A stretch of 64,000 bases of DNA from Pseudogemmatithrix spongiicola (GCF_030623445.1 NZ_CP130613.1:930001-994000); one strand, 5' to 3'. Numbered from the stretch's first letter, positions 5,304 through 61,540 are shown. Notes: generated by a model from the sequence alone, not told the origin. Program-made: numbers and translations.

Positions 5304-5315
5304 GGGATCGCCGCC

Positions 5316-7954: not shown

Positions 7955-7976
7955 ATCCGACTTGTGCCGATAACTG

Positions 7977-8003
7977 ACGGGGTGCCCTGCGGCACCCCGT
8001 TTT
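7977..8003 (+). terminator. Rho-independent terminator of the paa operon
   Basis: A perfect 10-bp stem ACGGGGTGCC / GGCACCCCGT with a CTGC loop is followed directly by a short T run. It starts 22 nt after the paaZ stop. Confidence 0.9.
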
Positions 8004-8121
8004 GCGTTCCGTATAGAACTGGACCGTGTCAAGGTATTTGACATTGCGAATCAGTGTTTCCCTGACAATCGTTGCGTGACTTGGCGTCCCCGCGCCATCC
8101 CCCCTGTACGAGACCGGTGGC

Positions 8122-10776: not shown

Positions 10777-10795
10777 GGGGCGCGGCTCCGTCGGG

Positions 10796-11221
10796 TCAGC
10801 GGACGGTGATGCGGATCGGCGCGCTCACGAGCTCGCGCGAGATCACCTTGTGCTCGTGGTCGCCGAGCACGGCGCGGAGCGTGTAGGTACCGGGGGCCAG
10901 CGTGAGCGTGGTCTCGATGGCGCCGGTGCCGAAGTGGCGATGCAGCGAGTCGGCCGGGATGAGTGTGCCCGGCGCGCCGGCATCGGTGTTGATCAGGATG
11001 TGGAAGTGCCCGGTACGCGGAAAGTTCACGCTGGCCGGTGCGACGCCCCAGTTCTTCAGGCCGAACACGACGGTGAAGGTGCGCGGGACGGTCGCGCCGT
11101 CGCGGGGCTCGCGGATGGAGATCTCCGGGGCGGGCGTCTGGGCGGGCGTCGCCTGCGCGCGGAGGGTGGGCGCGGCGGAGACCACGGCGAGCAGGGCGGC
11201 GGCGAGGAAGCGGATCGGCAT
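10796..11221 (-). CDS. Exported DUF4399 protein
   Basis: ATG 11221 is chosen because it begins a clean signal peptide (about 22 residues ending AAPTLRAQ). The longer open frame up to 11353 has no such feature. The mature part, about 118 residues, matches the DUF4399 pattern: REPRDGATVPRTFTVVFGLKNWGVAPA, then GHFHILIN and GTYTLRAVLGDHEHKV. It is probably a small periplasmic beta-sandwich with conserved His. Role is unknown; the family often sits near metal or heme proteins. Confidence 0.75.
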   Translation of the reverse strand: MPIRFLAAALLAVVSAAPTLRAQATPAQTPAPEISIREPRDGATVPRTFTVVFGLKNWGVAPASVNFPRTGHFHILINTDAGAPGTLIPADSLHRHFGTGAIETTLTLAPGTYTLRAVLGDHEHKVISRELVSAPIRITVR

Positions 11222-11375: not shown

Positions 11376-11810
11376 TTGATTCGCCGGCTGGCTGTCCTCT
11401 CCTCGTTGGCCCTCGCTGCGATGGCCTTCGCCCTGCCACCGGCCGACCGGGCTGACGAAGGCGCCGTCCGTCGAGCGTCCCACACGATTACCATCACGCT
11501 CAAGTGCGAGACGCGCGACGGATTCGCCTCGCCCGACACGTTGCGCATCAAGCAAGGCGATACGGTCTACATCGAGCTCTCGCCGGACTCCGACGTCAGC
11601 AACTTCGTCGTGACGCCGAAGCCGCGGATAGGGATTCTTCCCGGCGCGTGGCCGTACCGTACGCGGCAGCTGACTGGCGGCCCCGGCAATCGCGCCGCCG
11701 CAGCGGACATGAAGCCGAACGCGGAAGGCCACTATCGCTATAACGCGCAGGGCGCATGCCCGGGCGGGCCGCCCGCGAAGTTTGACCCCGACATCATCGT
11801 CGAGCTCTAG
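11376..11810 (+). CDS. Exported hypothetical protein, small beta-rich domain
   Basis: A protein of about 144 residues with an N-terminal signal peptide (MIRRLAVLSSLALAAMAFA) followed by one domain starting HTITITLKCETRDGF. I do not recognise the family. The strand-rich start and the phrase IKQGDTVYIELSPDSDVSNFVVTP suggest an Ig or cupredoxin-like sandwich, but no Cys-His copper set is complete. TTG 11376 is chosen because GGAG lies 6 nt upstream; TTG 11364 is also in frame. It ends 6 nt before the kinase gene and may form an operon with it. Confidence 0.6.
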   Translation: MIRRLAVLSSLALAAMAFALPPADRADEGAVRRASHTITITLKCETRDGFASPDTLRIKQGDTVYIELSPDSDVSNFVVTPKPRIGILPGAWPYRTRQLTGGPGNRAAAADMKPNAEGHYRYNAQGACPGGPPAKFDPDIIVEL

Positions 11811-11816
11811 CCCGTC

Positions 11817-14075
<2,259 letters not shown>

Positions 14076-14096
14076 ATCCCGGGGCGGTCCTGGCCC

Positions 14097-14115
14097 GTAG
14101 GTGCCCTGCACCTAC
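14097..14115. terminator. Perfect hairpin after the kinase gene
   Basis: An 8-bp perfect inverted repeat GTAGGTGC-CCT-GCACCTAC begins 22 nt after the kinase stop and ends 27 nt before the next start. No T run follows, so it may be a weak terminator, an mRNA-stabilising hairpin or an operator for the next gene. Confidence 0.45.
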
Positions 14116-14141
14116 GACGCGCCCTTCCACCCGTACCGCCG

Positions 14142-14807
14142 ATGCAAGCGACCCCCTCCGCGCAGCCCGCGCCCGCCCCTGCAGCAAGCGCCCCGCAGAC
14201 CACCGCGCCGCAGAGTCCGGTGCTGCCCGGCGGTCCCTACACGGCACGCGAGATGTACGAAGCCGCCTCCACGCAGCGGCGCCTCATCCGCGACCAGCTG
14301 GCCAACGCCGAGGGCGAGCGCGAGGAAGTGGCGCGGCAGCTGCGCCAGCCGGGTGTCGAGGGCGTGGACAAGGAGGGGCTTGAGCAGCATCTGCGCGCGC
14401 TCGACATCCGCGTGCTTGACCTGCGCCAGCAATTGGCCGATGCGCAGTTGCGCGAGTCCCAAGCGGCGGCGGTGCCCGGGAGTACCACGCCGTCACCGGA
14501 GGAGAGCAGCGCCGATCGCTTCGAGGTCGTCATGACGGTGGGCGTGCTCCTGACACTCGCGATGGGATTCCCGCTGGTGATTGCCTACGCGCGGCGTCTC
14601 TGGAAGAAGGCGGCGGTGACGGTCTCGATGACCCCGGAGCTTGACCGCCGCCTCGATTCGATCGATCGCGCGATCGAGACCACGGCCCTGGAAGTCGAGC
14701 GCATCGGCGAAGGCCAGCGCTTCGTGACCCAGCTGCTGGCGAATCGCGCGATGCAGGATGCCGCGCAAGCGCTCCCGCCCAGCGCGGATTCGCGACCGAC
14801 GACGTAA
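14142..14807 (+). CDS. Hypothetical coiled-coil protein with one membrane segment
   Basis: A 221-residue protein of unknown function. The order of parts is a Pro/Ala-rich N terminus (1-35), a charged coiled coil (about 40-110), one membrane helix (about 130-150, VVMTVGVLLTLAMGFPLVIAY) and a second short coiled coil with conserved-looking EVERIGEGQRF near 190. The arrangement suggests a membrane scaffold. It follows the Ser/Thr kinase by 66 nt and could be its partner, but that is only positional. Confidence 0.6.
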   Translation: MQATPSAQPAPAPAASAPQTTAPQSPVLPGGPYTAREMYEAASTQRRLIRDQLANAEGEREEVARQLRQPGVEGVDKEGLEQHLRALDIRVLDLRQQLADAQLRESQAAAVPGSTTPSPEESSADRFEVVMTVGVLLTLAMGFPLVIAYARRLWKKAAVTVSMTPELDRRLDSIDRAIETTALEVERIGEGQRFVTQLLANRAMQDAAQALPPSADSRPTT

Positions 14808-46945: not shown

Positions 46946-48175
46946 ATGCGCCCACACGTCCTGCTGCTCTCCGCCCTCGTCGCGCTGCCGACGCTCGCCT
47001 GCGCCCAAGCCGGCGCCCGCGTCGCGCAGCCCTCGTCGTCCACCGATCCGCACGCGGCCGTCGCCGAGCGCGTGCTGCGCGGGACGCCACTCATCGACGG
47101 GCACAACGACCTGCCGTGGGCCATCCGCGAGTCCAAGGATGCGCCGCGCGACGTGGAGCGCTATGACCTCCGCACGCGCACGGCCGGGCACACCGACATC
47201 GCGCGCCTACGCGCCGGCCGCGTCGGCGGACAGTTCTGGTCCGTGTACATCCCCGGCGAGGACGCCACGAAGGCGATGGGGTACGCGCGCGTGCAGCTGG
47301 AGCAGATCGACATCGCGCTGCGCGTGTTCGCGAAGTACCCCGACGTGCTCGAGCCGATCACCACCGCACAAGGGTTCCGCGACGCCTTCGCCCGCGGGCG
47401 CATCGGTTCGGTGATGGGGATGGAGGGCGGCCACGCCATCGAGAACTCGCTCGGGGCATTGCGCGCGTACCACGCGATGGGCGCCCGCTACATGACGCTC
47501 ACGCACAACGTGCATCTCGATTGGGCCGACGCGCACGTGCCGAATCCCCGCCACGGCGGCCTCACCGCCTTCGGCAAGGAAGTCGTGCGCGAGATGAACC
47601 GGCTGGGCATGCTCGTCGACCTCTCGCACACCTCGCCGGCGACGATGAGCGATGCCTTGGACGTGAGCGAGGCGCCGGTGATGTGGTCCCACTCGAACGC
47701 GTTCGCCGTGGCGAACCACACGCGCAACGTGCCGGATTCCATCCTGCGGCGGCTGCCGCGGAATGGCGGCGTGGTGATGGTGACCTTCGTGCCGGGCTTC
47801 GTGAGTCAGGCGCAGGTGGACTGGAATCGCACGCCGGCAGCGGAGCGTCGCGGTCCGGCGCCCGGCGCGACCCTGGCGCAGGTGGCGGACCACCTCGACC
47901 ACATCAAGCGCGTGGCCGGCGCCGACCACGTGGGCATCGGCGGCGACTTCGATGGCATCGACGACGTGGTGCGCGGGCTCGAGGACGTCTCGACGTACCC
48001 GGCGCTGTTCGCCGAGCTCTCACGCCGTGGCTGGACCGAGGCGGAGCTCCGCAAGCTGGCGGGCGAGAACGTCCTGCGCGCGATGGCGCAGGCCGAGCGC
48101 GTCGCGGCGCGGCTCCAGCGGGAGCGCGCGCCGTCGACGGCGACTATCGAGCAGCTCGACCGGCGAACGCCGTAG
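46946..48175 (+). CDS. Exported membrane-dipeptidase family (M19) peptidase
   Basis: A zinc dipeptidase of 409 residues with a Sec signal (ending LACAQ). All metal ligands of the M19 family are visible: LIDGHNDLPW (His, Asp), MEGGHAIEN (bridging Glu), LVDLSHTSP and MWSHSNAFA (His). A conserved GIGGDFDGID follows. It should hydrolyse dipeptides, perhaps with D-residues, in the periplasm. The 3' end overlaps the convergent carH-type gene by 32 nt. Confidence 0.9.
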   Translation: MRPHVLLLSALVALPTLACAQAGARVAQPSSSTDPHAAVAERVLRGTPLIDGHNDLPWAIRESKDAPRDVERYDLRTRTAGHTDIARLRAGRVGGQFWSVYIPGEDATKAMGYARVQLEQIDIALRVFAKYPDVLEPITTAQGFRDAFARGRIGSVMGMEGGHAIENSLGALRAYHAMGARYMTLTHNVHLDWADAHVPNPRHGGLTAFGKEVVREMNRLGMLVDLSHTSPATMSDALDVSEAPVMWSHSNAFAVANHTRNVPDSILRRLPRNGGVVMVTFVPGFVSQAQVDWNRTPAAERRGPAPGATLAQVADHLDHIKRVAGADHVGIGGDFDGIDDVVRGLEDVSTYPALFAELSRRGWTEAELRKLAGENVLRAMAQAERVAARLQRERAPSTATIEQLDRRTP

Positions 48176-49100
48176 CCGCGCGGACGCGCAGCCACTGCCG
48201 CATGCCGACCAGCGACGAGAACTGCTGCGCGCCGATCTCGCGGATGACGTCGCTGTAGTGCTGGGCGCCGCTGCCGCCGATCACGAGGCCGATGTCCGCC
48301 GGGAGCGCCGCGCGTAGCGCGCGGAGTTCGTCCGGGAGTTCGTCGTCGTCGGTGGGATACACCACCGAGAGCGCCAGCGCGCTGGCCTTCGCGAACTTGA
48401 CCGCCCGCGCGAGTTCGTCCGCGGGGAGGTTCGGGCCGAGGTAGGCCACGCGCCATCCGCTGGACGCGGCCGTGGTCGCGGCGAGCATCGCGCCGAGTTC
48501 GTGCATCTGGCGCGCCGGCGTGCCGACGACCAGCAGCGGCGCATGCGCGTCCGCGACGGCGAGGTCCGACATCCAGACGAGCACGCGGCGGATTGTCGTC
48601 GTCGCGAGGTGCTCGTTGGCCGGACGCAGCAGCCCCTGGTGCCAGAGCGAGCCGATGGTGAAGAGCAGCGGCCCGATGACTTGGTCGAGCACCTCGTCAC
48701 TGGGCATGCGCAGCACGGCGGAGCGCAGCGTCTGCTCGAGGCGCTGTGCATCGAACTCCTCGACGGCAATCAGCGCGCTGGAGAGATACGACTCGATTGC
48801 CGGCTGATCTGGCCCCACCCCGACCCGCTGGCGGGACTGCCGCTCGTCGTCCTCGATGAGCTTCTGCAAGTCGGGGTTGGCTAGCGGCACCAGCTGTCCG
48901 ATCTGCCGTCCGGCGCGCGAGGCGCGCGAGAGCAGGGAGAGGCGCTCGATGTCGGCGTCCGTGTAATGCCGCTGGCCACCGGGCGAGCGCACGGGTGAGA
49001 CCGCCTTGTAGCGGCGCTCCCATGCGCGTAGCACGTCGGGCGTCAGGCCAGTGCGCTGCGAAACTATTCGAACAGGATGCAAGCCGGGCGAAGCGGGCAT
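48144..49100 (-). CDS. CarH/LitR-type MerR repressor with adenosylcobalamin light-sensor domain
   Basis: A 318-residue protein. Residues 8-75 are a MerR winged helix (IVSQRTGLTPDVLRAWERRY, then GGQRHYTDADIERL). A four-helix bundle carries the light-sensor signature W153-x9-E163-H164. A B12-binding Rossmann domain follows with H200 in QMHELG, 36 residues after H164, matching the geometry of Thermus CarH. CarH tetramers hold AdoCbl in the dark, bind DNA, and fall apart in light. The acidic residue usual two places before the lower axial His is Gln here. Its own promoter contains a 19-bp palindrome, so autorepression is likely. No carotenoid gene is adjacent. Confidence 0.88.
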   Translation of the reverse strand: MPASPGLHPVRIVSQRTGLTPDVLRAWERRYKAVSPVRSPGGQRHYTDADIERLSLLSRASRAGRQIGQLVPLANPDLQKLIEDDERQSRQRVGVGPDQPAIESYLSSALIAVEEFDAQRLEQTLRSAVLRMPSDEVLDQVIGPLLFTIGSLWHQGLLRPANEHLATTTIRRVLVWMSDLAVADAHAPLLVVGTPARQMHELGAMLAATTAASSGWRVAYLGPNLPADELARAVKFAKASALALSVVYPTDDDELPDELRALRAALPADIGLVIGGSGAQHYSDVIREIGAQQFSSLVGMRQWLRVRAATAFAGRAAR

Positions 49101-49826: not shown

Positions 49827-50408
49827 ATGCGTCCTGTTGCCTTGATTGCCCTCGCCCTCCTTGCCGCCGCGCCGCTGTCCGCCCAGGGCGGCGCCGCCCA
49901 GCCGGGCGCCCTCCGTGCGCCGCTCAGCACGCGGGTCGTCTTCTCGATGCCGCTCGCGCCGCCGCGCGTGCAGGGTCAGCCGGCGCCCACGCCCAAGAAC
50001 GTGAGCATCGAGTACGGCCAGCCGCACGCGCGCGGCCGCGCCGTCCCCACCGAGCTCAACGCCGACGGCACCGTGTGGCGGACCGGCGCCAACAGCTCCA
50101 CCACGCTGCGCACCGAGACGGCGCTGGTCATCGGCGGCGCCGACGTGCCGGCCGGTAACTACTCGCTCTACACGATCCGCCAGAACGGCCAGTACTTCCT
50201 CATCATCAACAACAACACCGGCCAGTGGGGCACCGAGTACGACGCCACCAAGGACCTCGTGCGCGTCCCGCTCCGCATGCGGCAGCGCAGTGAGGTGCAG
50301 GAGTCGCTGCAGATCGTGATGGTGCCGGCCGACAACCAGTCGGCGCGCGGCGTGCTCTCGATCTCGTGGGGTCGCCTCGAGCTGACGGCGGATTGGTCCG
50401 CCAAGTGA
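49827..50408 (+). CDS. Exported DUF2911 protein
   Basis: A 193-residue protein with a signal peptide (ending PLSAQ) and the DUF2911 pattern: VSIEYGQPHARGR, WRTGANSSTTLRTE, VPAGNYSLYTI and WGTEYDATKDLVRVPL. It is a small beta-rich periplasmic domain of unknown function. ATG 49827 starts the signal peptide. The stop overlaps the GTG of the YaiO-like gene, so the two are one operon. Confidence 0.8.
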   Translation: MRPVALIALALLAAAPLSAQGGAAQPGALRAPLSTRVVFSMPLAPPRVQGQPAPTPKNVSIEYGQPHARGRAVPTELNADGTVWRTGANSSTTLRTETALVIGGADVPAGNYSLYTIRQNGQYFLIINNNTGQWGTEYDATKDLVRVPLRMRQRSEVQESLQIVMVPADNQSARGVLSISWGRLELTADWSAK

Positions 50409-51955
50409 CACGAGTCGCCGCGGCGCTCCTCGCCATCGCTCTGGTGACGGGGCGCGCCGCGGCGCAGCAGGACCCCTCGCGCGCGGCCCGCGACTCGCTG
50501 GCGGCGCGCGTCGCGCGCGGGGACTCTGCGTGGGCGCGCGAGGACCATCCGGCCGCCCGAGCCGCCTACGATGCCGTGGTGCGTGCCGACTCGAGCTTCT
50601 CGAGCCGCGCCGTCTTCCGACTCGGGCTGCTGCAGGCCTGGGACAATCGGTTCGAGCCGGCGCTCGCCGCACTCCGGCTCTACGTCCGCCTCGAGCCCGC
50701 CGACCTCGAGGGGCGTGTCGCGCTCGCGCGCACCTACGCCTGGGCGTCCCGCTACGCGACCTCGCTCGCGCAGTACGACAGCGTGCTCGCGCGCGATGCG
50801 TCCTATCGCGATGCCGTCGTCGGCAAGGCGCAGACGCTCGCGTGGAGCGATCGCCTGCCGGAGGCCGAAGCGCGGCTGGAGCGTTGGCTGGAGCGTCGCG
50901 CCGATGATGTGGAGGCATGGACGCTGCTCGGGCAGTTCCGCCGCTGGCGGGGCGATGCCCGCGCCGCGGAGTCGGCGCTCGATCGGGCGCTCGCGCTCCG
51001 GCCCGACGATGCCGCCGCGCGCGAGCAAATGTCGTGGGTGCGCGTGGAGCGTCGGCCGACGGTCACCTGGTCGCTCGTCGGCGCCAAGGACTCCGAGGAC
51101 AACACGTTGTGGCACCGCGAGCTGGGCGTCGAGGCCGCGGGGTTCGGCAACAGCCGCATCGGCGTGACGGCGCGGCTGCGCGAGGCGAGCGTGACCAACG
51201 TCGATGCCGCGGTCATGCCGGGTGCGCTGGCGTACATCGTCGGGCGGCCAGCCGGCCGGGCGGTGACGACGCGCGCGGAACTCGGCGTCGTGCAGTACCC
51301 CGACGGGCTGAGCCCCGCGGCGACGCGGCTGCGCGGGGCCTTGCGGGTGAGCGGGTCTCCGCGGCGCGGTCTCCGGCTCTCGGGCGGTTTCTCCCATGAG
51401 CCGTTCGATGAAGTGCTCTCGACGGCCCGGCGCGGCTTGATGTTCTCCGTGTTCGATCTCGACGCGGCGTACGCGGTCACGCCTCGCCTGCAACTCGGCC
51501 TGGCCGGCAGCAGCGGTCTCGCGCTGGGGTACGGCGTCGATCTCGATGCGTCCCGCACGACGGTCCTTGGGGCGCTGCGCTTCACGCCGCGCCGCGGCAC
51601 CCAGCTGGCGCTGACGCATCGCGAGGCCTCGTGGGACGAGCCGCAGTTCGGCGTGTTCTTCTCGCCCCAGCGGTGGGCCACGACGGAGCTGGCGCTCTCC
51701 TCGGAGCGCACGGCGGAGCTCGGCCTCGTGCTCGCCGGCGACCTCGGGCTCGCGAGCCAGCTCGTCGGCTTCGAGTCGTCGCCGCTCGATCACGCCATCG
51801 TGCCGCGCGCGACGATGCGCGTCGGATATCGGGCGGCGCCCGGACGCGAGGTGATCTTCGGCCTCGTGTACGCGAACGTCGCCGGCGCCGGTGCGATCAC
51901 GGCCAGCGATTACCGCTATGGCGCCGCCACGCTCGGCGGGCGCTGGACTTTCTAG
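50405..51955 (+). CDS. TPR plus YaiO-like outer-membrane beta-barrel
   Basis: A 516-residue exported protein with a signal peptide ending GRAAAQ. TPR-like repeats fill about residues 30-210 (LRLYVRLEPADLEGRVALARTYAW, then AESALDRALALRPDDAAAREQM). The second half is an outer-membrane barrel of the YaiO kind with many alternating strands, ending GAATLGGRWTF with a C-terminal Phe. In E. coli yaiO lies near the glycosyltransferase gene yaiP, and TPR-barrel proteins serve as polysaccharide export ports. Here a family 2 glycosyltransferase is encoded 6 kb away in the same locus. Confidence 0.78.
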   Translation: MTRVAAALLAIALVTGRAAAQQDPSRAARDSLAARVARGDSAWAREDHPAARAAYDAVVRADSSFSSRAVFRLGLLQAWDNRFEPALAALRLYVRLEPADLEGRVALARTYAWASRYATSLAQYDSVLARDASYRDAVVGKAQTLAWSDRLPEAEARLERWLERRADDVEAWTLLGQFRRWRGDARAAESALDRALALRPDDAAAREQMSWVRVERRPTVTWSLVGAKDSEDNTLWHRELGVEAAGFGNSRIGVTARLREASVTNVDAAVMPGALAYIVGRPAGRAVTTRAELGVVQYPDGLSPAATRLRGALRVSGSPRRGLRLSGGFSHEPFDEVLSTARRGLMFSVFDLDAAYAVTPRLQLGLAGSSGLALGYGVDLDASRTTVLGALRFTPRRGTQLALTHREASWDEPQFGVFFSPQRWATTELALSSERTAELGLVLAGDLGLASQLVGFESSPLDHAIVPRATMRVGYRAAPGREVIFGLVYANVAGAGAITASDYRYGAATLGGRWTF

Positions 51956-54618
51956 CGCTTCGGGCCCGCGTCGGGAATCGCGCGGAACACCTCGCGCATC
52001 GCGGCGAACGCCGGCTTGCGCTCGGCGTACCAGCGCGGCGCTTCCCACGTGGGCCAGGTCCACGTCGGAGCGAGGGACGCGGGGTTCGCAGGGAGCGCGT
52101 CGCGCAGCACCGGCGTGGCACCGCTCACGTCGAGTGTCCGGACGACGAAGCGGAACCCGTCAGTCGTCACGTGCGCCGGATCCGTGCCGCGTACGCCGCT
52201 CAGCACCTGCCGCGACGACGGATCGGTCACGTGCAGCAACCCCCACGGCAAACGGACCTCGATCGTGCCGCTGGCGCTGTCAGCGTACCAATCGGCGAGC
52301 GTCGTCTCGGATTGCCGCGCGTGCCGCAGGAGGTTGCGTTCGTAGCGCTGGGCCTCGTACACGCGCCCGTCGCGCCCGAAGGTCCGCCGGTTGGGCGTGG
52401 CCCAGACGGTGTCGTAGCGGCCGTCCTCGTTGCGCAGGGAGCGGAACGGCCGGTTGTACACGGACTGCTGCACGGGCGGGCGGCTGCCGACGATCGGCGC
52501 GAAGCGGTACAGGTTGTACGGCGTGTCCACGAGGAGACGCGCGTGCTCTGGGCCGGCCAGGTCGAGCACGAACTCGAGGCCGACCGGGCTGCCACCCGCA
52601 CCGAACGGCAGGCGGTGATCACCCGCCGACGCGTCGTGCGTGTCGATGCCCACGAGGATGCGCGTGCGGGTCCAGTCCACGGCGCCCACGTCGAGTCGCA
52701 AGTACACGTAGGCCTCGTCGTGCGCGACCCAGAGGGCGTCAACGCGCTGCGCCGCCGGCACCGCCTCGGCGTCGGCGCCGCGCTGGAGCAGCGGCCGTCG
52801 GCCCGCCCAGTCGGCGCGCCCGCCGTCGATCACGAACGCGGAGTCCTTCGCGCCGGCCCGCATCGCGATCAGCCCATAGTGCTGCTCCGCATCGAGCACG
52901 TTCAGCCACAGGCGGTTACGCTCGGCCGGCTGCTCGAAGTCGATCACCAGCCAGTTCTTCTTGAACCACTCGTCGATGAGCGCGAAGACGCCGACGCCAG
53001 CCGCCCCGCTCGCGGCGATGTCTCGCGTGAGGCGCGCATTGATCGCCGCCTGCGCGACTTCGTCGTGGCCGCCATGGTGCCAGCCCTGCGGCTGCAGGTG
53101 CGCGTTCCCCCGCGAACTCGGCACGCCGTACTCCGAGATTACCACCGGGATGCGTCCATGGTAGTCGACGAGCGCCCGGAGGTAGCCGAAGTAATGGCTC
53201 GGGCCGTCGGGACTGCGCGCCTGCGCGTAGGCGCTGTCGAGCACCATGAAGTCGGGGTAGTACGGATACGCGTGGAAGCTCGCGAACAACCCGGCGCCGT
53301 ACTCGCGCGTGGCCGACATCTTCGTCGCATCGAGCGCGATGACGTCGTTGTCGTACTCCTTCGAGGCCTCGGGCGGCCGCTCGCGCCGCCGGCGGAGCCA
53401 CGCCGCTTCCTCGGCGCGTGACGTCTCGGTGGGGTGCACCAGGGGATCGAGCGTCGGCCAGTTGGTGTAGGCGAGCGGCCGCTGTGTGTTCCATTCGCGC
53501 ATCTCGTAGGCGATCATCGCGTCGGCGACGCTCGCCAGCCACACGTCCACCGCGTTGCCGCCGGCAACCTGCACGTAGCGCCCGCTGAAGGCCGTGCGCC
53601 GCGGAAACCGCCGCGCGTAAGCCTGCACCGAATACGGCTCCCATTCGCGGCCGATGATGTAGCCCAGCGTCCACGGAGAGACATCCGCGAGGTACATGCC
53701 GCTCGCGTGCCCGGGACGGTGCGGGATCGCGGCGCGCCCGTGCAGCAGATCGACCACCCGGTGCATCTCGGCGCGGAACGCGGCGTTCCACGCCGCGTCG
53801 TCGTAGCGCTCTTCCTGTGACCCCGGTGGCAGTTCGGTCCACACGCCGTGGATCAGCCAGATGGCCTGCGCCGGATGCGCGAGATTCCACGCGCGCAGCG
53901 CGCGGTAGAAATGCGGCGGATGGATCGTGTACACGCGCACGGCATTGGCGCCCAGCTCGGCGAGATCGCGGATCCACGCCTCGTAGGTGCCGTCGTCGGG
54001 CGGAAACTGCGCCGGATGCTTGCCCGGGAGCGCCGCGCCGAGGTTCACGGCCTTGATCCAAAAGGGCCGCCAGCCGCCGCGGCCGTCGGGCACCTCGAAG
54101 ATGCGGTCGCCGACGCGCGCCGCAACGATCGGAGCGGCGGGCCGCTGCTTCGGTGGCAGCGCCGTGCTGTCGACGGGCGCTGGGATGCGGGCGAGGTACT
54201 CGCGCGCCGTCGCGTTGCCCGGTTCGAGCGAGTCGGCGAGGGCGAAGGCGCGATGCGCGCGCGTCAGCACACCGGCGCGGAACGATGCGATGCCGAGCCC
54301 GAGTGCCGCATCGATGCTCGGCCGCGGCAGCACGGTGAGCGCGGAGTCGAAACGCGCGATGGCCAGCGGCACGCGGTCCTGTCGCAACGCGACGTAGCCG
54401 AGTCCGGTCCAGCCATCGCCGGCGCGCGGACACGCGCGCACCCCGCGGCGGAACAGCGAATCGGCGCCGGCGATGTCATTCGCGCGCCACCGCTGCCAGC
54501 CGGCGTCGATGTCCGCGGCGGCGGTCGGTGCGCAACTGGGGTTCGCCTGGGCGCCGAGGGTCGGCGTCGCGACACTCGTCAGCAGCGCGAGCAGCGCACG
54601 CCGAGCACCGGCGCTCAC
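51952..54618 (-). CDS. Exported glycoside-hydrolase-like protein with TPR and CBM9-like parts
   Basis: A protein of 888 residues. GTG 54618 overlaps the stop of the receiver gene and begins a signal peptide (ending TLGAQ). Residues 30-150 are TPR-like. Residues about 190-590 form a TIM barrel of clan GH-A look: VNLGAALPGKHPAQFPPDDG, GREWEPYSVQ with the likely acid/base Glu, and VVISEYGVPSS with the likely nucleophile Glu. The C-terminal 250 residues resemble a CBM9-type sugar-binding domain (LWVAHDEAYVYLRLDV). Both catalytic Glu are present, so hydrolase or transglycosylase activity on a polysaccharide is plausible. It is convergent with the YaiO-like gene (4-nt overlap). Confidence 0.75.
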   Translation of the reverse strand: MSAGARRALLALLTSVATPTLGAQANPSCAPTAAADIDAGWQRWRANDIAGADSLFRRGVRACPRAGDGWTGLGYVALRQDRVPLAIARFDSALTVLPRPSIDAALGLGIASFRAGVLTRAHRAFALADSLEPGNATAREYLARIPAPVDSTALPPKQRPAAPIVAARVGDRIFEVPDGRGGWRPFWIKAVNLGAALPGKHPAQFPPDDGTYEAWIRDLAELGANAVRVYTIHPPHFYRALRAWNLAHPAQAIWLIHGVWTELPPGSQEERYDDAAWNAAFRAEMHRVVDLLHGRAAIPHRPGHASGMYLADVSPWTLGYIIGREWEPYSVQAYARRFPRRTAFSGRYVQVAGGNAVDVWLASVADAMIAYEMREWNTQRPLAYTNWPTLDPLVHPTETSRAEEAAWLRRRRERPPEASKEYDNDVIALDATKMSATREYGAGLFASFHAYPYYPDFMVLDSAYAQARSPDGPSHYFGYLRALVDYHGRIPVVISEYGVPSSRGNAHLQPQGWHHGGHDEVAQAAINARLTRDIAASGAAGVGVFALIDEWFKKNWLVIDFEQPAERNRLWLNVLDAEQHYGLIAMRAGAKDSAFVIDGGRADWAGRRPLLQRGADAEAVPAAQRVDALWVAHDEAYVYLRLDVGAVDWTRTRILVGIDTHDASAGDHRLPFGAGGSPVGLEFVLDLAGPEHARLLVDTPYNLYRFAPIVGSRPPVQQSVYNRPFRSLRNEDGRYDTVWATPNRRTFGRDGRVYEAQRYERNLLRHARQSETTLADWYADSASGTIEVRLPWGLLHVTDPSSRQVLSGVRGTDPAHVTTDGFRFVVRTLDVSGATPVLRDALPANPASLAPTWTWPTWEAPRWYAERKPAFAAMREVFRAIPDAGPKR

Positions 54619-54980
54619 CGCCCGAGCGCGACGAGCAGTTCGCCGGCCAATGTGAGCGGATCGAACGGCTTGGTCAAGCAGGCGACGGCCCCCACCTCGA
54701 GCGCCGTGTCGCGCTCGCCGCGCTGCGCCCGCGCCGTGAGGAACACCACGGGGATCGCCGCAGTTTCGGGATCGGCCTTCAAGCGGCGGCAGGTCTCGTA
54801 GCCATCGAGTTCGGGCATCATGGCATCGAGCAGGATGGCGTCGGGCTTCGCGTCCTTCACGCGCGCCAGCAAGGCAACCCCCGAGGGGAGGACCTCGGCC
54901 TCGATCGTCGGTTCGAGCCCAAGGGCAAGCTCGAGGATCGTACGGATATCGGGTTCGTCGTCGGCACAGAGCAGTCGCAT
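54615..54980 (-). CDS. Stand-alone response-regulator receiver
   Basis: A single CheY-like domain of 121 residues: acid pair CADDEPD, phospho-acceptor in AILLDAMMPELDG, Thr in FLTARAQ and Lys in LTKPFDP. It has no output domain. It is cotranscribed with the hydrolase gene (GTGA overlap) and diverges from the Hpt-REC gene, so it is probably one end of the local phosphorelay. Confidence 0.88.
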   Translation of the reverse strand: MRLLCADDEPDIRTILELALGLEPTIEAEVLPSGVALLARVKDAKPDAILLDAMMPELDGYETCRRLKADPETAAIPVVFLTARAQRGERDTALEVGAVACLTKPFDPLTLAGELLVALGR

Positions 54981-55107
54981 GGGCGAAAGCTGCCGTCGCG
55001 GGCCGTGCGCTCGCAACTGGCCGCGCGCCGACCTGTCCGCCGCGCAGGCGGAAGGCGATAATTCCCGCAGCGCAACACACCGCTTCCTTCCTTCTCCGCG
55101 CGACGCG

Positions 55108-57027
55108 ATGGCCGGTTCGGCAGACCTCAACGCAGTCCTGGCGCAGCTGCGCGAGAAGTATCTCGCGTCCAGCGGCAACACGCTGGCGGCGTTCACGCAG
55201 CTCGCCGAGCAACTGCAGCGCGACCCGACGACGCCGGAAGTGGTGGAGGCACTGCGTCGCGAGCTGCATCGCGTGCACGGCACGGCCGGCAGTTACGGCT
55301 TCCACGAAGCCAGCCGGTTGGCCGGGGCGCTCGAGCCCGTCGCGGTGAAGTGGGCGTCCGATCCACAGCTGGATCGCGAGCGCCGCGCGGGCATCGTGCG
55401 GCAGTTCATCCGCGCGCTCGCCGGGTCGCTGCAGCAGGATCAGGCCGACGCGGCGTCGACGGCCGATGCCTTGACGCACCGCGTGCTGCTCGTCGAAGTC
55501 CCGCCGGAAGCCGCACCGGGCATCGTCGCCGAGGCGATGCACCGTGGGTACGCCGTCGAGCAGGTGCAGGCGACGGGCGTCTCGGCCGTGTTCGAGGCGA
55601 CGCAGCCGACGATCGTCATCGCCGGCGCGTCGGTTGCGCTGACGGTGCCGGAAGGCGTGCCGCTGCTCCTGCTGCGCACGCCCGGGGGCGCCGTCGCGCC
55701 GCGCGCCGCGGCGGCGCGCGTGCTCGAGGCCGCCACCGACCCGCGCGAGATCCTCATGATCGCCGAGTCCATGGCCACGCGCACGGGCTTGGTGGGCGTG
55801 ACCATCCTCGTCGTGGACGACGACGAGGCGATGGTGGCGCTGCTGCGATCGCTCTGCGAACGGCAGGGCATGTTCGTCGAATCGCGCCCCGATGCGCGCG
55901 AGCTCGCCCGCACGATCGACGAGGTGCGCCCCTCGCTGCTGCTGCTCGACATCAACCTGCCGGGCATCAACGGTCTCGTGGTCACGCGGCAGTTGAAGGA
56001 CAGCCCGCAGCATCGGGAGCTGCCCATCGTGCTGGTGTCGGGCAGCACGGACGTGGACACCCGCACGGCGGCGTTCGTCGCCGGCGCGGACGACTTCCAG
56101 TCGAAGCCGGTGGTCGCCGAGGAACTCCTGCGGCGCATCGAGCGCATCCTCGAGAACGCGCGGCAGCGGCAGCTCCAGCAGGGCATCCATCCGGCGACGG
56201 GCCTGCCGCTGGCACAGCGGACATTGCGGGCGTTCGACGAAGCCCTCATGGCCGCCGCGGCGCGCGCCGAGGCGATGTCCGTGGCGGTGGTGCGGCCGCT
56301 TGACCCGCCGGATGGCGTGCAGCGTTCGGCGCTGTGGCACCGCGAGCTGCGCCTGCTGTCCGCGGCGCTCGGGACGGACGGCGTGCTGATGGGGTTCCGC
56401 GACGAGACCGCGGCGCTGTTGGTATTCCCGATGCGTGCGGCGGTGGCCCTGGCGCGCCTCGAGCCGTACGCCGAGGCCTCGCGGGCGGACCTCGTGCCGT
56501 GGAGCGCCGGCGTAGTGGACTTGCTGCCCGGTGCCGACCCGTCGGCGTCCGCGTTGGCCGGTCTCGCCGAGGAAGCCTGGCTCGCGGCGCGCGACAATGG
56601 CGAGTACGTGCGGCGCTGGGATCCGACCGACACGGGCATCGCGCCCGATGTCATCGTCGTCGAGGACGATGCCGCGCTGGCGGACCTCGTGACCTTCGCG
56701 CTCGCCGCCCGCGGCCTGACCTGGGTGCGCTACAACACTGGACCGGCGGCGCTCGACGGCATGCGCGGCATGCGCGTGCGTGGCCGCTCGCCCATCGTCC
56801 TGCTGGACGTCGACCTGCCCGGCCTCGACGGCTTCTCGCTGCACGAGCGCCTGCGCGTGGAGCGACCCGGCGTGTTCCGCACCGTGTTCGTGTCGGTGCA
56901 TGCGACGGAGGCCGACCAGCTGCGGGCGATTCGCGCCGGCGCGCTGGACTACCTCGCGAAGCCCGTCAGCCTGCGGGTCTTGATGGCCAAGATCGCGAGT
57001 TGGCGGATGCGGGGCGCGGCCGCGTGA
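55108..57027 (+). CDS. Hpt-pseudoREC-REC-degenerate GGDEF-REC phosphorelay protein
   Basis: A multidomain signalling protein of 639 residues. Residues 5-120 are an Hpt domain (HRVHGTAGSYGF, phospho-His near 57). Residues 128-225 look like a receiver that has lost its Asp. Residues 232-352 are a full receiver (VVDDDEA, LLLLDINLPGING with Asp near 281, SKPV). Residues 355-495 begin like a diguanylate cyclase (GIHPATGLPLAQRTLRAFDEAL), but no GGDEF motif follows, so it is probably catalytically dead. Residues 515-636 are a second full receiver (VVEDDAA, LLDVDLPGLDG, AKPV). ATG 55108 starts the Hpt domain. A GATAAT at 55057-55062 may be its -10. Confidence 0.82.
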   Translation: MAGSADLNAVLAQLREKYLASSGNTLAAFTQLAEQLQRDPTTPEVVEALRRELHRVHGTAGSYGFHEASRLAGALEPVAVKWASDPQLDRERRAGIVRQFIRALAGSLQQDQADAASTADALTHRVLLVEVPPEAAPGIVAEAMHRGYAVEQVQATGVSAVFEATQPTIVIAGASVALTVPEGVPLLLLRTPGGAVAPRAAAARVLEAATDPREILMIAESMATRTGLVGVTILVVDDDEAMVALLRSLCERQGMFVESRPDARELARTIDEVRPSLLLLDINLPGINGLVVTRQLKDSPQHRELPIVLVSGSTDVDTRTAAFVAGADDFQSKPVVAEELLRRIERILENARQRQLQQGIHPATGLPLAQRTLRAFDEALMAAAARAEAMSVAVVRPLDPPDGVQRSALWHRELRLLSAALGTDGVLMGFRDETAALLVFPMRAAVALARLEPYAEASRADLVPWSAGVVDLLPGADPSASALAGLAEEAWLAARDNGEYVRRWDPTDTGIAPDVIVVEDDAALADLVTFALAARGLTWVRYNTGPAALDGMRGMRVRGRSPIVLLDVDLPGLDGFSLHERLRVERPGVFRTVFVSVHATEADQLRAIRAGALDYLAKPVSLRVLMAKIASWRMRGAAA

Positions 57028-58094
57028 ACGCGGCGTTCGTCCTCGGCGTCGTCGGCATCGTGCAGGTGGCCTTCCTGGCGCTGCTGCTCACCTTCGTCCT
57101 CGTGCGGCGGCGCTACGACCGGGAGCGGCGGGCCGCGTTCGTGGCGGGCCGGGAGGCGCTTGCGGCGCCGCTGCGCGACTGGATCGTGGCGGGCGCGCAT
57201 CCGGAACCGGTGGTGCGCGCGCTGCGGGCCTTGCCCCGCGGCACGGCGGTCGGGTACGTCTCGCTGCTCGCCCGGCAGACCATTCCCGAGGCGCAGCGCA
57301 ACGAACTGGCCATGGCGCTGCGCAACGAGCCGTGGGTGATGGCGGCCGTGCAGCGTCGCCGCTCGCGCTATTGGTGGCGGCGGCTCGAGTCGGCGCGCGC
57401 GCTCGGCATCGTCGGCACCGTGAAGGATCGCGACGCCGTGCTCGAGCTCCTCCGCGATGAGCATCCCGCGGTGCAGATCGCCGCGGCGACGGCGCTGCCG
57501 CGCGTCGCCGACGAGGCGCTGTTCGGGCAGGTCATGGATGAGCTGTTCGCGCTGCCCAAGGTGACCCGCACGTATCTCACGGGCATCCTGCGCCAGAGGG
57601 CCGCGGCGGCCGCGGTGCCGCTGGCGCATCGCATCCGCACGGGCGAGGGGGCCTCGGAACTCGCCGCGTGGATTGCCCTCGCGGCGTCGCTCGACGACCC
57701 GCGCGCCATCGAGGCGGCGTTGAAGCATGCCGCGCATCCCTCCGCGTTCGTGCGCCGGACGGTGGCGCGCGCGCTGGGCCGCTTCGCCGGCCCCGATGCC
57801 GCGCGCGTGCTCGCCGACCTAGTCGGCGACAGCGACGCGACGGTGCGGGCCGCCGCGGCCCGCTCGCTCGGGGAACTCGGCGCTACCGGTGCGGTGCCGC
57901 TGCTGGCCCCGCTGGTCAGCGATCCCGTGTGGCAAGTGCGCCTGCACGCGGCGCTCTCGCTCGCCCAACTGGGTGAGCGCGGGCGCGCCGCGCTGCGCGC
58001 CGCGCGCGAGGGCGGGGACCGTTTCGCGCGCGACATGGCGACGATGGTCAGCGGCCTCAGCGACGGCGCCATCCTCGAGATGGGGCAGGGTTGA
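57024..58094 (+). CDS. Membrane-anchored HEAT-repeat protein
   Basis: A 356-residue protein with one N-terminal membrane helix (residues 5-27) and a cytoplasmic array of HEAT repeats (ESARALGIVGTVKDRDAVLELL, HPAVQIAAATALPRVAD, VRRTVARALGRFAGPDAARVLADLVGD, VRAAAARSLGELGATGAVPLL). HEAT arrays are protein-binding scaffolds. It is coupled at both ends: its GTG overlaps the Hpt-REC stop, and its stop overlaps the glycosyltransferase start. I infer an adaptor linking the phosphorelay to the synthase. Confidence 0.8.
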   Translation: MNAAFVLGVVGIVQVAFLALLLTFVLVRRRYDRERRAAFVAGREALAAPLRDWIVAGAHPEPVVRALRALPRGTAVGYVSLLARQTIPEAQRNELAMALRNEPWVMAAVQRRRSRYWWRRLESARALGIVGTVKDRDAVLELLRDEHPAVQIAAATALPRVADEALFGQVMDELFALPKVTRTYLTGILRQRAAAAAVPLAHRIRTGEGASELAAWIALAASLDDPRAIEAALKHAAHPSAFVRRTVARALGRFAGPDAARVLADLVGDSDATVRAAAARSLGELGATGAVPLLAPLVSDPVWQVRLHAALSLAQLGERGRAALRAAREGGDRFARDMATMVSGLSDGAILEMGQG

Positions 58095-59533
58095 TGGACC
58101 CGGCCTGGGTCGGCATCGCGCGGGCCATCCTGTTCTGGACCGACTGGGCGGCCCTCGTCTACCTGTTGCTGCTCTCGACCGGCTACGCGGTGCTGCTGCT
58201 GCTGTCCATCCCGGAGCTGTGGCGGCACTGGCGTCTCGCCGCCGACGAGCACCTACAGCGCCTGCTGGCCTCCGACGCGCTGCCGCCGCTCACGCTGCTC
58301 GTGCCGGCCTACAACGAAGAAGTCACCATCGGTGCGAGCTTGCTCTCGTTCCTCACGCTGGAGTATCCGCAGCTCGAGGTCGTGGTCGTCAATGACGGCT
58401 CCAAGGACGCCACGATGCAGGCCCTCGTGCGCGAGTTCGACCTCTACGAGGTGCCGCCGGCCTTTCCCGTGACCATCCGCACGAAGCCCGTGCGCGGCTA
58501 TTATCGCTCACGCCGCTTTGCCCGCCTGCTGGTCATCGACAAGGAGAACGGCGGCAAGGCCGACTCGCTCAACGCCGCGATGAACGCGGCGCGGCATCCC
58601 TTCGTCGTGGCGGTGGACGCCGATACGCTCATCGAACCCGACGCGCTCATGCGGCTCGCGCGGCCCTTCCTCCTCGGCGCGAACGTGGCGGCCGTGGGCG
58701 GGACCATCCGCGTCGCCAATGACTGCACCGTCGAGCTCGGCCGCGTGACGGACGCGCGCGTGAGCAACCAGTGGATCGTCGGCTGCCAGGTCGTCGAGTA
58801 CCTGCGCGCGTTCCTCTTCGGGCGCCTCGGCTGGAACTCCCTCGGCGGCAACCTCATCATCTCCGGCGCCTTCGGGCTGTTCCGCAAGGAGTACCTGCTC
58901 GCCATCGGCGGGTACAAGACGGGCAACGTGACCGAGGACATGGACCTCGTCGTGCGCCTGCACCGTTATCTCCGCGAGAACGGCATCGCGGCGACGCTGC
59001 CCTTCATTCCCGACCCCGTGGCGTGGACCGAGGTCCCGACCTCGACGCAGGTGCTCTCGCGCCAGCGGGAGCGTTGGCATCGCGGACTCATCGGCACGTT
59101 GTGGACGCACCGGGCCATGCTGTTCAATCCGCGCTATGGCAGCATCGGGATGCTGGCGGTGCCGTTCTACCTCTTCGGCGAGATGCTGGCGCCGGTGGTC
59201 GAACTTGTCGGCTGGCTCGCGCTCTTCCTCGGGCTCGCCCTCGGGGCGGTGGACGCCGGCTTCGCCGCGCTGTTCTTCGCGGTGGCCATCGGGTACGGCA
59301 CCTTCCTGTCGCTGTGGGCCGTCGTGCTGGAGGAGACCAGCTTCAAGCGCTACCGGCGCCGCGTCGATTTCTGGAAGCTCATCGGCTTCGCGCTCATCGA
59401 GGGCCTGGGGTACCGGCAGATGACCGTGTTCTATCGCCTGCAGTCGTTCTGGAAGCACCTGCGCGGCGTGGAGAGCTGGGGCACGATGACGCGGCAGGGG
59501 TTCGGGACCAAGCCGCCGGCCCTCAAGCCCTGA
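58094..59533 (+). CDS. Processive family 2 glycosyltransferase
   Basis: A 479-residue inner-membrane glycosyltransferase of the cellulose/hyaluronan/PNAG synthase type. There are N-terminal membrane helices, then the GT2 domain: LVPAYNEEVTIG, VVNDGSKDAT, DADTLIEP (DxD), TEDMDLVVRL and the processivity motif RQRERWHRG (QxxRW). C-terminal membrane helices follow. It should build and push a polysaccharide chain across the inner membrane. No PilZ domain is visible, so c-di-GMP control, if any, is not through PilZ. ATG 58094 is chosen over TTG 58091 and overlaps the HEAT gene stop by one base (TGATG). Confidence 0.87.
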   Translation: MDPAWVGIARAILFWTDWAALVYLLLLSTGYAVLLLLSIPELWRHWRLAADEHLQRLLASDALPPLTLLVPAYNEEVTIGASLLSFLTLEYPQLEVVVVNDGSKDATMQALVREFDLYEVPPAFPVTIRTKPVRGYYRSRRFARLLVIDKENGGKADSLNAAMNAARHPFVVAVDADTLIEPDALMRLARPFLLGANVAAVGGTIRVANDCTVELGRVTDARVSNQWIVGCQVVEYLRAFLFGRLGWNSLGGNLIISGAFGLFRKEYLLAIGGYKTGNVTEDMDLVVRLHRYLRENGIAATLPFIPDPVAWTEVPTSTQVLSRQRERWHRGLIGTLWTHRAMLFNPRYGSIGMLAVPFYLFGEMLAPVVELVGWLALFLGLALGAVDAGFAALFFAVAIGYGTFLSLWAVVLEETSFKRYRRRVDFWKLIGFALIEGLGYRQMTVFYRLQSFWKHLRGVESWGTMTRQGFGTKPPALKP

Positions 59534-59542
59534 GGCGCGCGC

Positions 59543-61540
59543 TCAGCCGCCCTGCAGCTCGCGCCGGATGCGCTCGAGCAGCGACTGTTCGGAGTCGCGC
59601 GTCTTCACGAAGGCATCGCCGATGCGGATGCCGGCATCCTTCAGCGTCGCCTGCGTGAACTCCGTCGCGGAGTAGAGCAGGATCGGGATGGCCTTGAAGC
59701 GCGGATCGACGCGGAGGCGGCGGGCGAACGCGATGCCGTCCATGCCGGGCAGTCCGTGGTCGACGATGATGAGGCGGTACGGATGGCGGCCGAGCATGCG
59801 CGTCGCCGTCAGCGCGTCGGGCACGGCGACGGCGTGCGCGTACGGCTCGACCAGCGCACACATGACGGTGCGCATCGATTCGTCGTCCTCGACGATCAGC
59901 ACGCGCGGCCGCTCGTCCTCGCTGGTCGCCGCGGCCGGCGCCAGCGGAAGCACGACGTAGAACACGCTGCCGCTGCCCTCCGCCGGCGCCTCGAAGCCAA
60001 TGCGCCCGCCATGCAGTTCCGTGATGCCCTTGGCGATGCTCAGGCCGAGGCCCGTGCCGCCTGACCGCCGCGACTCGGCGCCGCCGGCCTGTTGGAAGCG
60101 ACCGAAGATGCGGGACGCGAACTCCTTGGGGATGCCGGGGCCGTGGTCACGGACGCAGACGCGCACACTCTCGCCCTCGACCTGTGCGCTCACCTCCACG
60201 GCCTCGTCCCTCGGCGTGAACTTCACGGCGTTCGAGACGAGGTTCGTGAAGACCTGGATGAGGCGGTCGCTGTCGCCGATCAGCTCGAGGTCCGGGATCT
60301 GCTCGAGGCGGAGGTGCACGCCGGCATCGCGGCTGAAGCCGTCAAGGCCGTTCAGCGTCGTTTCAAGGAGGGGGCGCAGCGCGACGCGGTCGTGACGGAT
60401 CTGCACATGCCCCGCATCCATCTTCTCGATGTCGAGGATGTCGTTGATCAGCCGGATGAGGCGGTCGGTGTTGGTGAGCGCGATGCGCAGCAGCTCGCGG
60501 CCCTTGGGGCTGAGCTCGCCGCCGGCGCCGCCGAGGAGCAGGCCGAGCGCGCCGCGCATCGACGTCAGCGGCGTGCGCAGCTCGTGGCTCACCGTCGAGA
60601 CGAAGTCCGCCTTGAGCCGCTCCAACTCCTTGAGCTTCTCGATGTCGTCCTGGAGCTGACGCTCGCGCGTCGCGATGCTCTGGGCGAGGCGATCGAACGT
60701 AAGGCCGAGGCGCGCCATCTCGAGGTTCGGCGCCTTGTGGTAGTTCGGCAGCCGTGCCGCATCGTACCGGCCGGCGTCGAGGGCTTCCGCCGCGCGCACC
60801 ACCTGCGTGAGCGAGCGCGAGAGCAGGCGCATGATCAGCGTCAGCGCCAGCATGAAGATGGCCACCGCGGCCGCGCGAATGAGGAAACCCTCCCACTCGT
60901 AGCGGGCCGCCTCCGTCTCGATTTCGGCCTCCAGCTGCGTCAATCGCTCGCGGACCTCACGCAGCACCCGGGCGTGGTCGGTGCGCATCGAGTCGATGAA
61001 ATCGATGCCCCGGTCCACGCGGCGACTCCCCGCAGTGCCCGGCGCGAAGGCTGCGTAGCCGTCGCGCCGGCGCACCGCGAAGTTCACGCGGGCCACCTCG
61101 TCGTCGTAGAGTGCCACCGAGACGCGCAGGCGCTGCAGGCGGCGGGTGATGGTGAGGTCCGCGTCGAGCTGCTCGGCGATGATGGTGGCGTCGCTGTCGA
61201 AGGCCCGACGCGCCGCCTCGTACCGCATCGCCTCGGACTCGTCCGCGTTGATGATGAATCCGCGGTGCGAGGCCGCCATCGTGCTCAGCGACGCCAGCAT
61301 GCGGACGGCCGCGACCTCGGCGAGGTGGAGGCGATCCATGCGTTCGGCCCGCGCCCGCGCCTCGGCCTGCGACACATCCGCCGCGAGCCGCGCCGTGAGG
61401 AACCACGCAAACGCCACCAGCACGCCGATCGCGGCCAGCTGGGAGGTGAGGGGGAGGCGGCGCCACCACCAAGCAGCCTGCAGCTTCGCGGCGCCCGTGG
61501 GGGGCTCCGGCGTCTCGTCGGGAATGGGCGCCTCGGTCAT
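59543..61540 (-). CDS. Hybrid sensor histidine kinase with CHASE3-like sensor and receiver
   Basis: A membrane kinase of 665 residues. A first membrane helix near 30-50, a helical CHASE3-like periplasmic region (MLASLSTMAASHRGFIINADESEAM) and a second helix near 220-240 lead into a HAMP-like linker. The kinase core is complete: SHELRTPLTSMRGA (His near 320), NLVSNAVKFTP, DHGPGIP and GTGLGLSIAKG. A C-terminal receiver has VEDDESM, IIVDHGLPGMDG (Asp near 593) and VKTRD. As a hybrid kinase it needs an Hpt partner, and one is encoded 2.5 kb away. Its stop is 9 nt from the convergent glycosyltransferase stop. Confidence 0.88.
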   Translation of the reverse strand: MTEAPIPDETPEPPTGAAKLQAAWWWRRLPLTSQLAAIGVLVAFAWFLTARLAADVSQAEARARAERMDRLHLAEVAAVRMLASLSTMAASHRGFIINADESEAMRYEAARRAFDSDATIIAEQLDADLTITRRLQRLRVSVALYDDEVARVNFAVRRRDGYAAFAPGTAGSRRVDRGIDFIDSMRTDHARVLREVRERLTQLEAEIETEAARYEWEGFLIRAAAVAIFMLALTLIMRLLSRSLTQVVRAAEALDAGRYDAARLPNYHKAPNLEMARLGLTFDRLAQSIATRERQLQDDIEKLKELERLKADFVSTVSHELRTPLTSMRGALGLLLGGAGGELSPKGRELLRIALTNTDRLIRLINDILDIEKMDAGHVQIRHDRVALRPLLETTLNGLDGFSRDAGVHLRLEQIPDLELIGDSDRLIQVFTNLVSNAVKFTPRDEAVEVSAQVEGESVRVCVRDHGPGIPKEFASRIFGRFQQAGGAESRRSGGTGLGLSIAKGITELHGGRIGFEAPAEGSGSVFYVVLPLAPAAATSEDERPRVLIVEDDESMRTVMCALVEPYAHAVAVPDALTATRMLGRHPYRLIIVDHGLPGMDGIAFARRLRVDPRFKAIPILLYSATEFTQATLKDAGIRIGDAFVKTRDSEQSLLERIRRELQGG

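Follow-up and report, generated by a model that had tools for sequence, protein, structure and literature searches.

The seven genes at 50405-61540 of the analysed window, a stretch of 64,000 nucleotides (C1:930001-994000) from a genome of 3.26 Mb that belongs to the Gemmatimonas group, probably encode a synthase-dependent polysaccharide system whose own phosphorelay ends in REC2, a receiver domain encoded next to a HEAT-repeat protein, and controls the synthase at the post-translational level by way of that HEAT protein. It is well supported that the cluster is one undescribed and conserved system. The types of its parts are all known, and the combination and the route of control are apparently new.

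An earlier note on this DNA had listed seven genes with their domains and had described overlapping, interlocked transcription units; the open reading frames and Pfam matches place all seven as listed, and the measured gene ends agree with the overlaps (Table 1). On the same strand, the lone receiver and hydrolase genes overlap by 4 nt, the Hpt protein and HEAT genes by 4 nt, and the HEAT and GT2 genes by 1 nt (TGATG). At the convergent tails, the barrel and hydrolase genes overlap by 4 nt and the GT2 and kinase genes lie 9 nt apart. The sole real gap in the cluster is the 127 bp (54981-55107) between the divergent genes of the lone receiver and the Hpt protein. The seven genes include none for sugar-nucleotide synthesis.

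Table 1. Features of the seven-gene cluster in the window, and the corresponding genes of locus L185.
Feature	Position	Strand	Evidence
TPR + putative outer-membrane beta-barrel protein, exported	50405..51955	+	signal-like N-terminus, TPR_19 E 1e-9
TPR + (beta/alpha)8 glycoside hydrolase-like protein, exported, C-terminal beta domain, GTG start	51952..54618	-	TPR match, fold match
Lone receiver, single-domain response regulator	54615..54980	-	PF00072 E 5e-24, phospho-Asp present
Relay protein Hpt-linker-REC1-degenerate GGDEF-REC2	55108..57027	+	Pfam Hpt 13-83, REC 233-344, REC ~514-630; alignment
Hpt domain, phospho-acceptor H54 (codon 55267-55269)	55144..55356	+	Pfam, alignment
Degenerate GGDEF domain	56155..56637	+	in register with intact GGDEF of L166, L169, L185
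REC2, HEAT-adjacent receiver, D567 (codon 56806-56808)	56647..56997	+	active site conserved in alignment
HEAT-repeat protein, one N-terminal transmembrane helix, GTG start	57024..58094	+	HEAT_2 E 3e-22
Membrane processive GT2 synthase	58094..59533	+	PF13641 E 1.5e-26
Hybrid kinase CHASE3-HAMP-HisKA-HATPase-REC	59543..61540	-	Pfam
L185 CHASE3-PAS-HK-REC-REC	3336-5957		
L185 REC	5935-6303		
L185 Hpt-REC-GGDEF-REC	6320-8707		
L185 HEAT	8714-9769		
L185 GT2	9763-11208		
L185 TPR-GH	11470-14187		
L185 TPR-barrel	14187-15995		

Gene order around the synthase in other genomes

Relatives of the cluster were collected by the GT2 sequence alone, and the best 80 loci, out of 362 GT2 relatives in 84,980 species genomes, were compared. 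These 80 loci belong mostly to Gemmatimonadota, and also to Acidobacteria, Arthrobacter/Zafaria, Nitriliruptorales, Cloacimonadota, Binatia and Nitrospira. When at least 1.2 kb of upstream DNA was available, a HEAT gene was found directly upstream of the GT2 gene in every case (69/69), and when at least 1.9 kb was available, a receiver gene was found directly upstream of the HEAT gene in 65 of the 67 loci. Within 1.5 kb of paralogous GT2s in related genomes, neither HEAT nor REC was present (0/8). On the constant order and this paralogue control, the possibility that the genes are chance neighbours was rejected. Conservation of the neighbourhood, on which the earlier note had staked its proposal beforehand, is therefore found, and the gene order in relatives backs its view of a single conserved system that is built around a polysaccharide synthase and has a dedicated phosphorelay. 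The remaining relay genes were less constant within the available DNA of the 80 loci, many of which lie on short contigs (Hpt in 48/80, kinase in 23/80). In another sample, 150 good Gemmatimonadota genomes drawn separately, the GT2 was present in 37 (24 of 74 genera), a patchy distribution as of an accessory gene. Among 20 regions taken from this draw, the HEAT gene precedes the GT2 gene in 19, the remaining region (L182) beginning with the GT2 gene itself; in two loci, L183 and L184, the receiver lies behind the HEAT-GT2 pair and not in front of it.

In locus L185, from a different family within the class, the seven components all lie on the same strand and the GGDEF domain is intact; no other single observation argues as strongly that the window's interlocked units belong to one system. 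Parts of the same set recur elsewhere in different combinations. Locus L136 contains a five-gene run REC-HEAT-GT2-GH-barrel; Arthrobacter and Zafaria carry the genes in the order HK-REC, REC, Hpt-REC-REC, HEAT and GT2; and a block of Mesorhizobium ciceri pMESCI01 (MESCI_RS31990-RS32020) encodes HK-REC-REC, REC, REC, TPR-YaiO, HEAT, GT2 and Hpt. REC-HEAT-GT2 is found in the haloarchaea Haloarcula, Salinirubellus and Halosolutus, REC-TPR-HEAT-GT2 in Erythrobacter, and REC-HEAT-GT2-YaiO in Emticicia. An adjacent receiver gene is absent from hydrolase-HEAT-GT2 in Deinococcus, YaiO-HEAT-GT2 in Legionella, hydrolase-like-HEAT-GT2 in Planococcus and HEAT-GT2 in Bacteroides, indicating that the receiver is not required everywhere. 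Based on this distribution, HEAT-GT2 is the core, often joined by the receiver as a third member, and the relay, the hydrolase and the exporter appear to be variable additions that differ by lineage and envelope. Such a core, HEAT-GT2(-REC) with variable kinase, Hpt, hydrolase and barrel, had been overlooked by the earlier note.

Natural fusions of REC with HEAT or of HEAT with GT2, which would have been evidence that the proteins touch, were absent among the loci collected. A frame of 1757 aa in L181 that resembled a gene fusion was rejected as a spurious upstream reading.

Synthase, hydrolase-like protein and putative outer-membrane barrel

The GT2 protein of the window is 95% identical to that of 'Gemmatimonas sp. 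PR.013'. Its motif positions DGS, DAD, TED and QRERW are conserved in 15 relatives down to 48% identity, and D175, D177, E281-D282, Q324-R325 and R327-W328 are invariant in 15 GT2 sequences, as expected of a processive membrane GT2 with DxD and Q(Q/R)xRW motifs. When we compared the protein with NCBIfam, the best model was PgaC_IcaA (TIGR03937) with 123.9 bits against a cut-off of 422.3, and the cellulose model TIGR03030 gave 38.2 against a cut-off of 699. Since both scores are far below the cut-offs, membership in the PNAG and cellulose families was rejected; membership in the NfrBA family was likewise rejected, as Pfam finds no MshEN domain on the GT2. PilZ, PgaD, PelD and MshEN have no Pfam match in any of the seven proteins.

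The exported hydrolase consists of a TPR region (31-144) and a (beta/alpha)8 barrel. Its AF2 model, which is of middling confidence with a mean pLDDT of 63, has GH157 as top PDB match, followed by GH5, and E325 and E496 are invariant in seven relatives. A GH-A-like hydrolase, as the earlier note had called it, is thus supported by the fold match and the invariant Glu residues, but Pfam gives no family match. We regard the protein (P0002) as a putative periplasmic polymer-acting enzyme. As for the barrel protein, all 14 relatives have TPR and three of the 14 match BCSC_C (PF05420, the BcsC barrel). The description of this protein as a TPR-YaiO-like barrel stands for its TPR part, but not for the family, because no Pfam model, YaiO (PF19413) included, recognises the barrel part of P0001; the Mesorhizobium counterpart does match this model. 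The layout of P0001 resembles that of BcsC, PgaA and YaiO, and it is a putative polymer exit porin.

It could be argued that the GT2 glycosylates a lipid or a protein and makes no exopolysaccharide, with the hydrolase and the barrel as unrelated neighbours. The distance of the closest NCBIfam model from its cut-off would fit this, as would the many loci among the best 80 in which hydrolase and barrel are missing or off-contig. However, the GT2 carries the motifs of a processive enzyme including QRERW, same-strand runs of GT2, GH and barrel occur in L136, L114, L131 and L185, and the Deinococcus homologue of the hydrolase (hhalign E 3e-142) adjoins HEAT-GT2. We therefore consider glycosylation of a lipid or protein very improbable. 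In the exopolysaccharide system that we favour, the GT2 would polymerise a glycan and extrude it across the inner membrane, the TPR-hydrolase would trim or process it in the periplasm, and the TPR-barrel would let it out.

Phosphorelay and proposed control of the synthase

All domains of a multistep phosphorelay (HK-REC, Hpt and REC) are present with intact phospho-acceptor residues, namely Hpt H54, REC1 D281 and REC2 D567 of the Hpt protein, and those of the lone receiver and of the kinase receiver. As judged from these domains and residues, the complete relay from HK-REC to Hpt to REC that the earlier note proposed is likely to exist. It had further claimed that this relay lacks a DNA-binding output, and Pfam indeed finds no DNA-binding domain in the seven proteins. 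The divergent position of the lone receiver is conserved in relatives.

Between the two receivers of the Hpt protein, Pfam detects nothing in the window even at E 0.5. The degenerate GGDEF domain reported there is nevertheless real, since the region aligns in register with the intact GGDEF domains of L166 (5e-41), L185 (6e-39) and L169. In the window, ARWGGEEF is changed to MGFRDETA and the RxxD I-site is gone; with both the GGDEF motif and the I-site lost, an active diguanylate cyclase in the window was rejected. The intact GGDEF domains with RxxD in these three relatives, which the earlier note had overlooked, indicate that c-di-GMP output is ancestral or parallel in part of the family, and in such relatives c-di-GMP may be the true output. 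Other relatives have a short Hpt-REC protein without REC1 and GGDEF and keep Hpt, REC2, HEAT and GT2, indicating that GGDEF output is dispensable and that c-di-GMP synthesis is not the essential output.

These observations bear on whether c-di-GMP, and not REC2, controls the synthase, the GGDEF domain of the Hpt protein making the nucleotide in relatives and binding it in the window as in PelD or YdaK. The degenerate GGDEF domains of YdaJKLMN- and PelD-type synthases bind c-di-GMP. Degenerate GGDEF proteins encoded with a synthase serve there as c-di-GMP receptors (PMC5422440, PMC7112168), seven other GGDEF domains are present in the genome itself, and the three intact domains point in the same direction. 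Unlike the YdaJKLMN/PelD domains, that of the window lacks the I-site and is positioned between two receivers and behind an Hpt, and its GGDEF motif is lost as well. Moreover, many close relatives lack the GGDEF domain altogether while keeping Hpt-REC2-HEAT-GT2, and neither the GT2 nor the HEAT protein contains PilZ or MshEN in Pfam. Control by c-di-GMP is therefore improbable in our view.

The relation between the Hpt and the HEAT-adjacent receiver was examined across the loci. Where an Hpt is fused to this receiver, neither the phospho-Asp nor the Hpt His has been lost in any of the 44 loci, whereas 9 of the 23 receivers without a fused Hpt have lost the phospho-Asp, with Ser, Glu, Ala or Gly in its place (alignment checked); L127, L129 and L135 are among these phospho-dead members. 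The association between fused Hpt and phospho-Asp has a Fisher p of 2e-5, uncorrected for the tree. On the GT2 tree there are about 6 Asp changes, all in lineages without fused Hpt, and a tree-corrected pair test had 0-3 informative pairs, which never ran in the opposite direction but were too few to reach significance. Some of the non-fused loci (e.g. L123 and L132) have an Hpt in a neighbouring frame. This pattern in the sequences suggests that the Hpt feeds the HEAT-adjacent receiver. Since the nine receivers without phospho-Asp persist, the receiver seems to be useful as a protein in unphosphorylated form as well, and this suggests that it has a structural role alongside HEAT and GT2.

The persistence of these nine phospho-dead receivers also favours a different arrangement, in which HEAT constitutively assists the assembly or stability of the GT2, comparable to PgaD or BcsB, and the relay acts elsewhere or the receiver is a structural subunit or a phosphate sink. 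HEAT-GT2 without an adjacent receiver in Bacteroides, Deinococcus, Planococcus and Legionella agrees with it. Against this, the order REC-HEAT-GT2 holds in 65/67 loci and extends to archaea, and the Asp is never lost in Hpt-fused receivers. We consider a purely constitutive HEAT partner unlikely, though somewhat less so than control by c-di-GMP, and prefer the reading in which REC2 acts on the synthase through HEAT.

The HEAT protein has one N-terminal membrane helix followed by a HEAT solenoid, and the motif SRxWWRRLxAAR is found in the family in Gemmatimonadota, with relaxed versions elsewhere. For modelling only, REC and HEAT of L129 were joined by in-frame read-through of the stop codon between the two genes (unpaired rows), a construct that says nothing about real read-through. 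In the AlphaFold model the domains are well folded (pLDDT 96) and the HEAT part resembles HEAT/alphaRep solenoids, while the pTM of 0.73 does not exceed what HEAT by itself would be expected to reach and leaves the domain placement undecided. The alpha4-beta5-alpha5 face is the usual output face of receivers. The HEAT-adjacent receivers stand apart as a group from the remaining receivers in these loci, and their alpha4-beta5-alpha5 stretch is conserved, a conservation that partly reflects common descent only.

Based on the near-invariant order REC-HEAT-GT2 and the conservation of the receiver, direct protein-level control of the synthase with HEAT as adaptor, as the earlier note had supposed, is plausible. 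The CHASE3 hybrid kinase would sense a signal from the envelope or from outside, and phosphate may pass from the kinase to its own receiver, to the Hpt and then to REC2, with the lone receiver as a possible branch, intermediate or competitor. Phosphorylated REC2 would then act, presumably by contact, on the membrane-anchored HEAT solenoid, which would hold or gate the synthase through a contact of its own, and either activation or inhibition might result. Synthesis would in this way be switched post-translationally and not by transcription.

A broader proposal is possible, and we put it forward more tentatively than the account of the window itself. REC-HEAT-GT2 may represent a class of polysaccharide synthases, spanning bacteria and haloarchaea, in which protein phosphorylation acts as the switch by way of a HEAT solenoid, a phosphorelay counterpart of c-di-GMP control. 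The receiver would be a standing subunit able to lose its phospho-site, and the GGDEF arm a decaying add-on, as in the window.

Relation to known synthase systems

The cluster shares with the Pga (PNAG), Bcs (cellulose), Pel and alginate systems a membrane GT2, a TPR protein with a putative outer-membrane barrel and a putative periplasmic polymer-acting enzyme. However, it lacks PilZ, PgaD, PelD and BcsB and has a HEAT protein and a phosphorelay instead. The TPR domain of PgaA is reported to bind the polymer and to modulate its processing (PMC9384988). NfrB/NfrA, the N4 receptor glycan system of E. coli, combines a GT2 with a TPR-barrel partner and one dedicated local regulator, but there DgcJ controls NfrB by way of c-di-GMP and an MshEN domain (PMC8669469, PMC8669472), whereas the present cluster has no MshEN and contains HEAT and REC/Hpt. 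The earlier note was thus correct in describing this parallel as one that lacks the relay.

Recent precedent for the principle comes from Myxococcus xanthus, where the phosphorylated single-domain receiver EpsW activates EPS synthesis post-translationally by contacting the sugar transferase EpsZ (PMC12802240). The two cases differ in that EpsZ, a phosphoglycosyl transferase, works in a Wzx/Wzy pathway and the transferase of the cluster is a synthase-dependent GT2, and in that EpsW-EpsZ has no HEAT partner and belongs to the Dif chemosensory system and not to an Hpt relay. Control of exactly the EpsW-EpsZ type was rejected for the cluster, as it requires a large monotopic phosphoglycosyl transferase as target and the transferase here is a GT2 by Pfam.

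The Mesorhizobium ciceri block resembles the cluster in having HK-REC-REC, REC, a TPR-barrel protein, HEAT, GT2 and Hpt together, and it differs in that its Hpt is a separate gene, in that it has no GGDEF remnant, and in that no hydrolase was found beside it. We know of no study of this block (MESCI_RS31990-RS32020). In the open-access literature we found no description of a HEAT-GT2 or REC-HEAT-GT2 module, an absence that is not proof.

In most of the synthase-dependent polysaccharide machines known from bacteria such as E. coli and Pseudomonas, c-di-GMP is the switch. If our reading is true, the widely conserved receiver-HEAT-synthase module would provide a second, phosphorylation-based gate for a processive synthase, and one that extends to haloarchaea. 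Many genes that now carry no annotation beyond 'HEAT repeat protein', 'response regulator' or 'glycosyltransferase' would thereby gain a function open to testing. The module is accessible to such tests, since it is carried by cultured strains of Arthrobacter, Zafaria, Mesorhizobium ciceri and Haloarcula.

Receivers without the phospho-accepting Asp

In the receiver adjacent to HEAT, the phospho-Asp was replaced by Gly at four loci of relatives (L156, L151, L158, and L163). L156 was read over its whole length: the His of its Hpt-like segment is missing too, and its GGDEF motif has degenerated. A different substitution was observed in one genome (G122), which contains three copies of the GT2 synthase (L189, L190, and L191). 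One copy is accompanied by a full Hpt relay, and the other two are accompanied by a receiver with Ser in place of the phospho-Asp. The contigs carrying these Ser-containing receivers appear identical to the loci L127 and L135.

Hydrolase homologue on a Planococcus plasmid

In the Planococcus maritimus homologue of the exported hydrolase, which adjoins HEAT-GT2, both conserved catalytic-looking Glu positions are gone, with GREWEP changed to GDTWNQ and SEYG to SSFS. The homologue may be a form that binds rather than cleaves. Its neighbours encode a VTC-like polyphosphate polymerase domain, DUF4956, and CotH.

Other genes near the core

Coordinates of the features
Feature	Locus	Coordinates	Strand	Basis
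MerR-type HTH, then B12-binding-like domain (CarH-like)	window	48144-49100	-	translation, by eye
KaiC-like ATPase	L145 (Gemmatimonadaceae MAG)	5858-7249		
Much larger HEAT protein ahead of GT2 (frame ~1280 aa)	L181	3353-7198		
Hydrolase homologue	L175 (P. maritimus plasmid)	4823-6889		
Genes following GT2	L152 (Cloacimonadota MAG)	11419-14757		

The CarH-like gene of the window is not one of the seven, and nothing in the data ties it to the cluster. The KaiC-like ATPase gene lies between the receivers and the kinase, ahead of REC-HEAT-GT2, and the GT2 of L181 also contains extra sequence. In the Cloacimonadota MAG, the genes after GT2 encode a carbon-nitrogen hydrolase, a NagA-like amidohydrolase, and a phosphomannomutase; they may offer a clue to which sugar is used.
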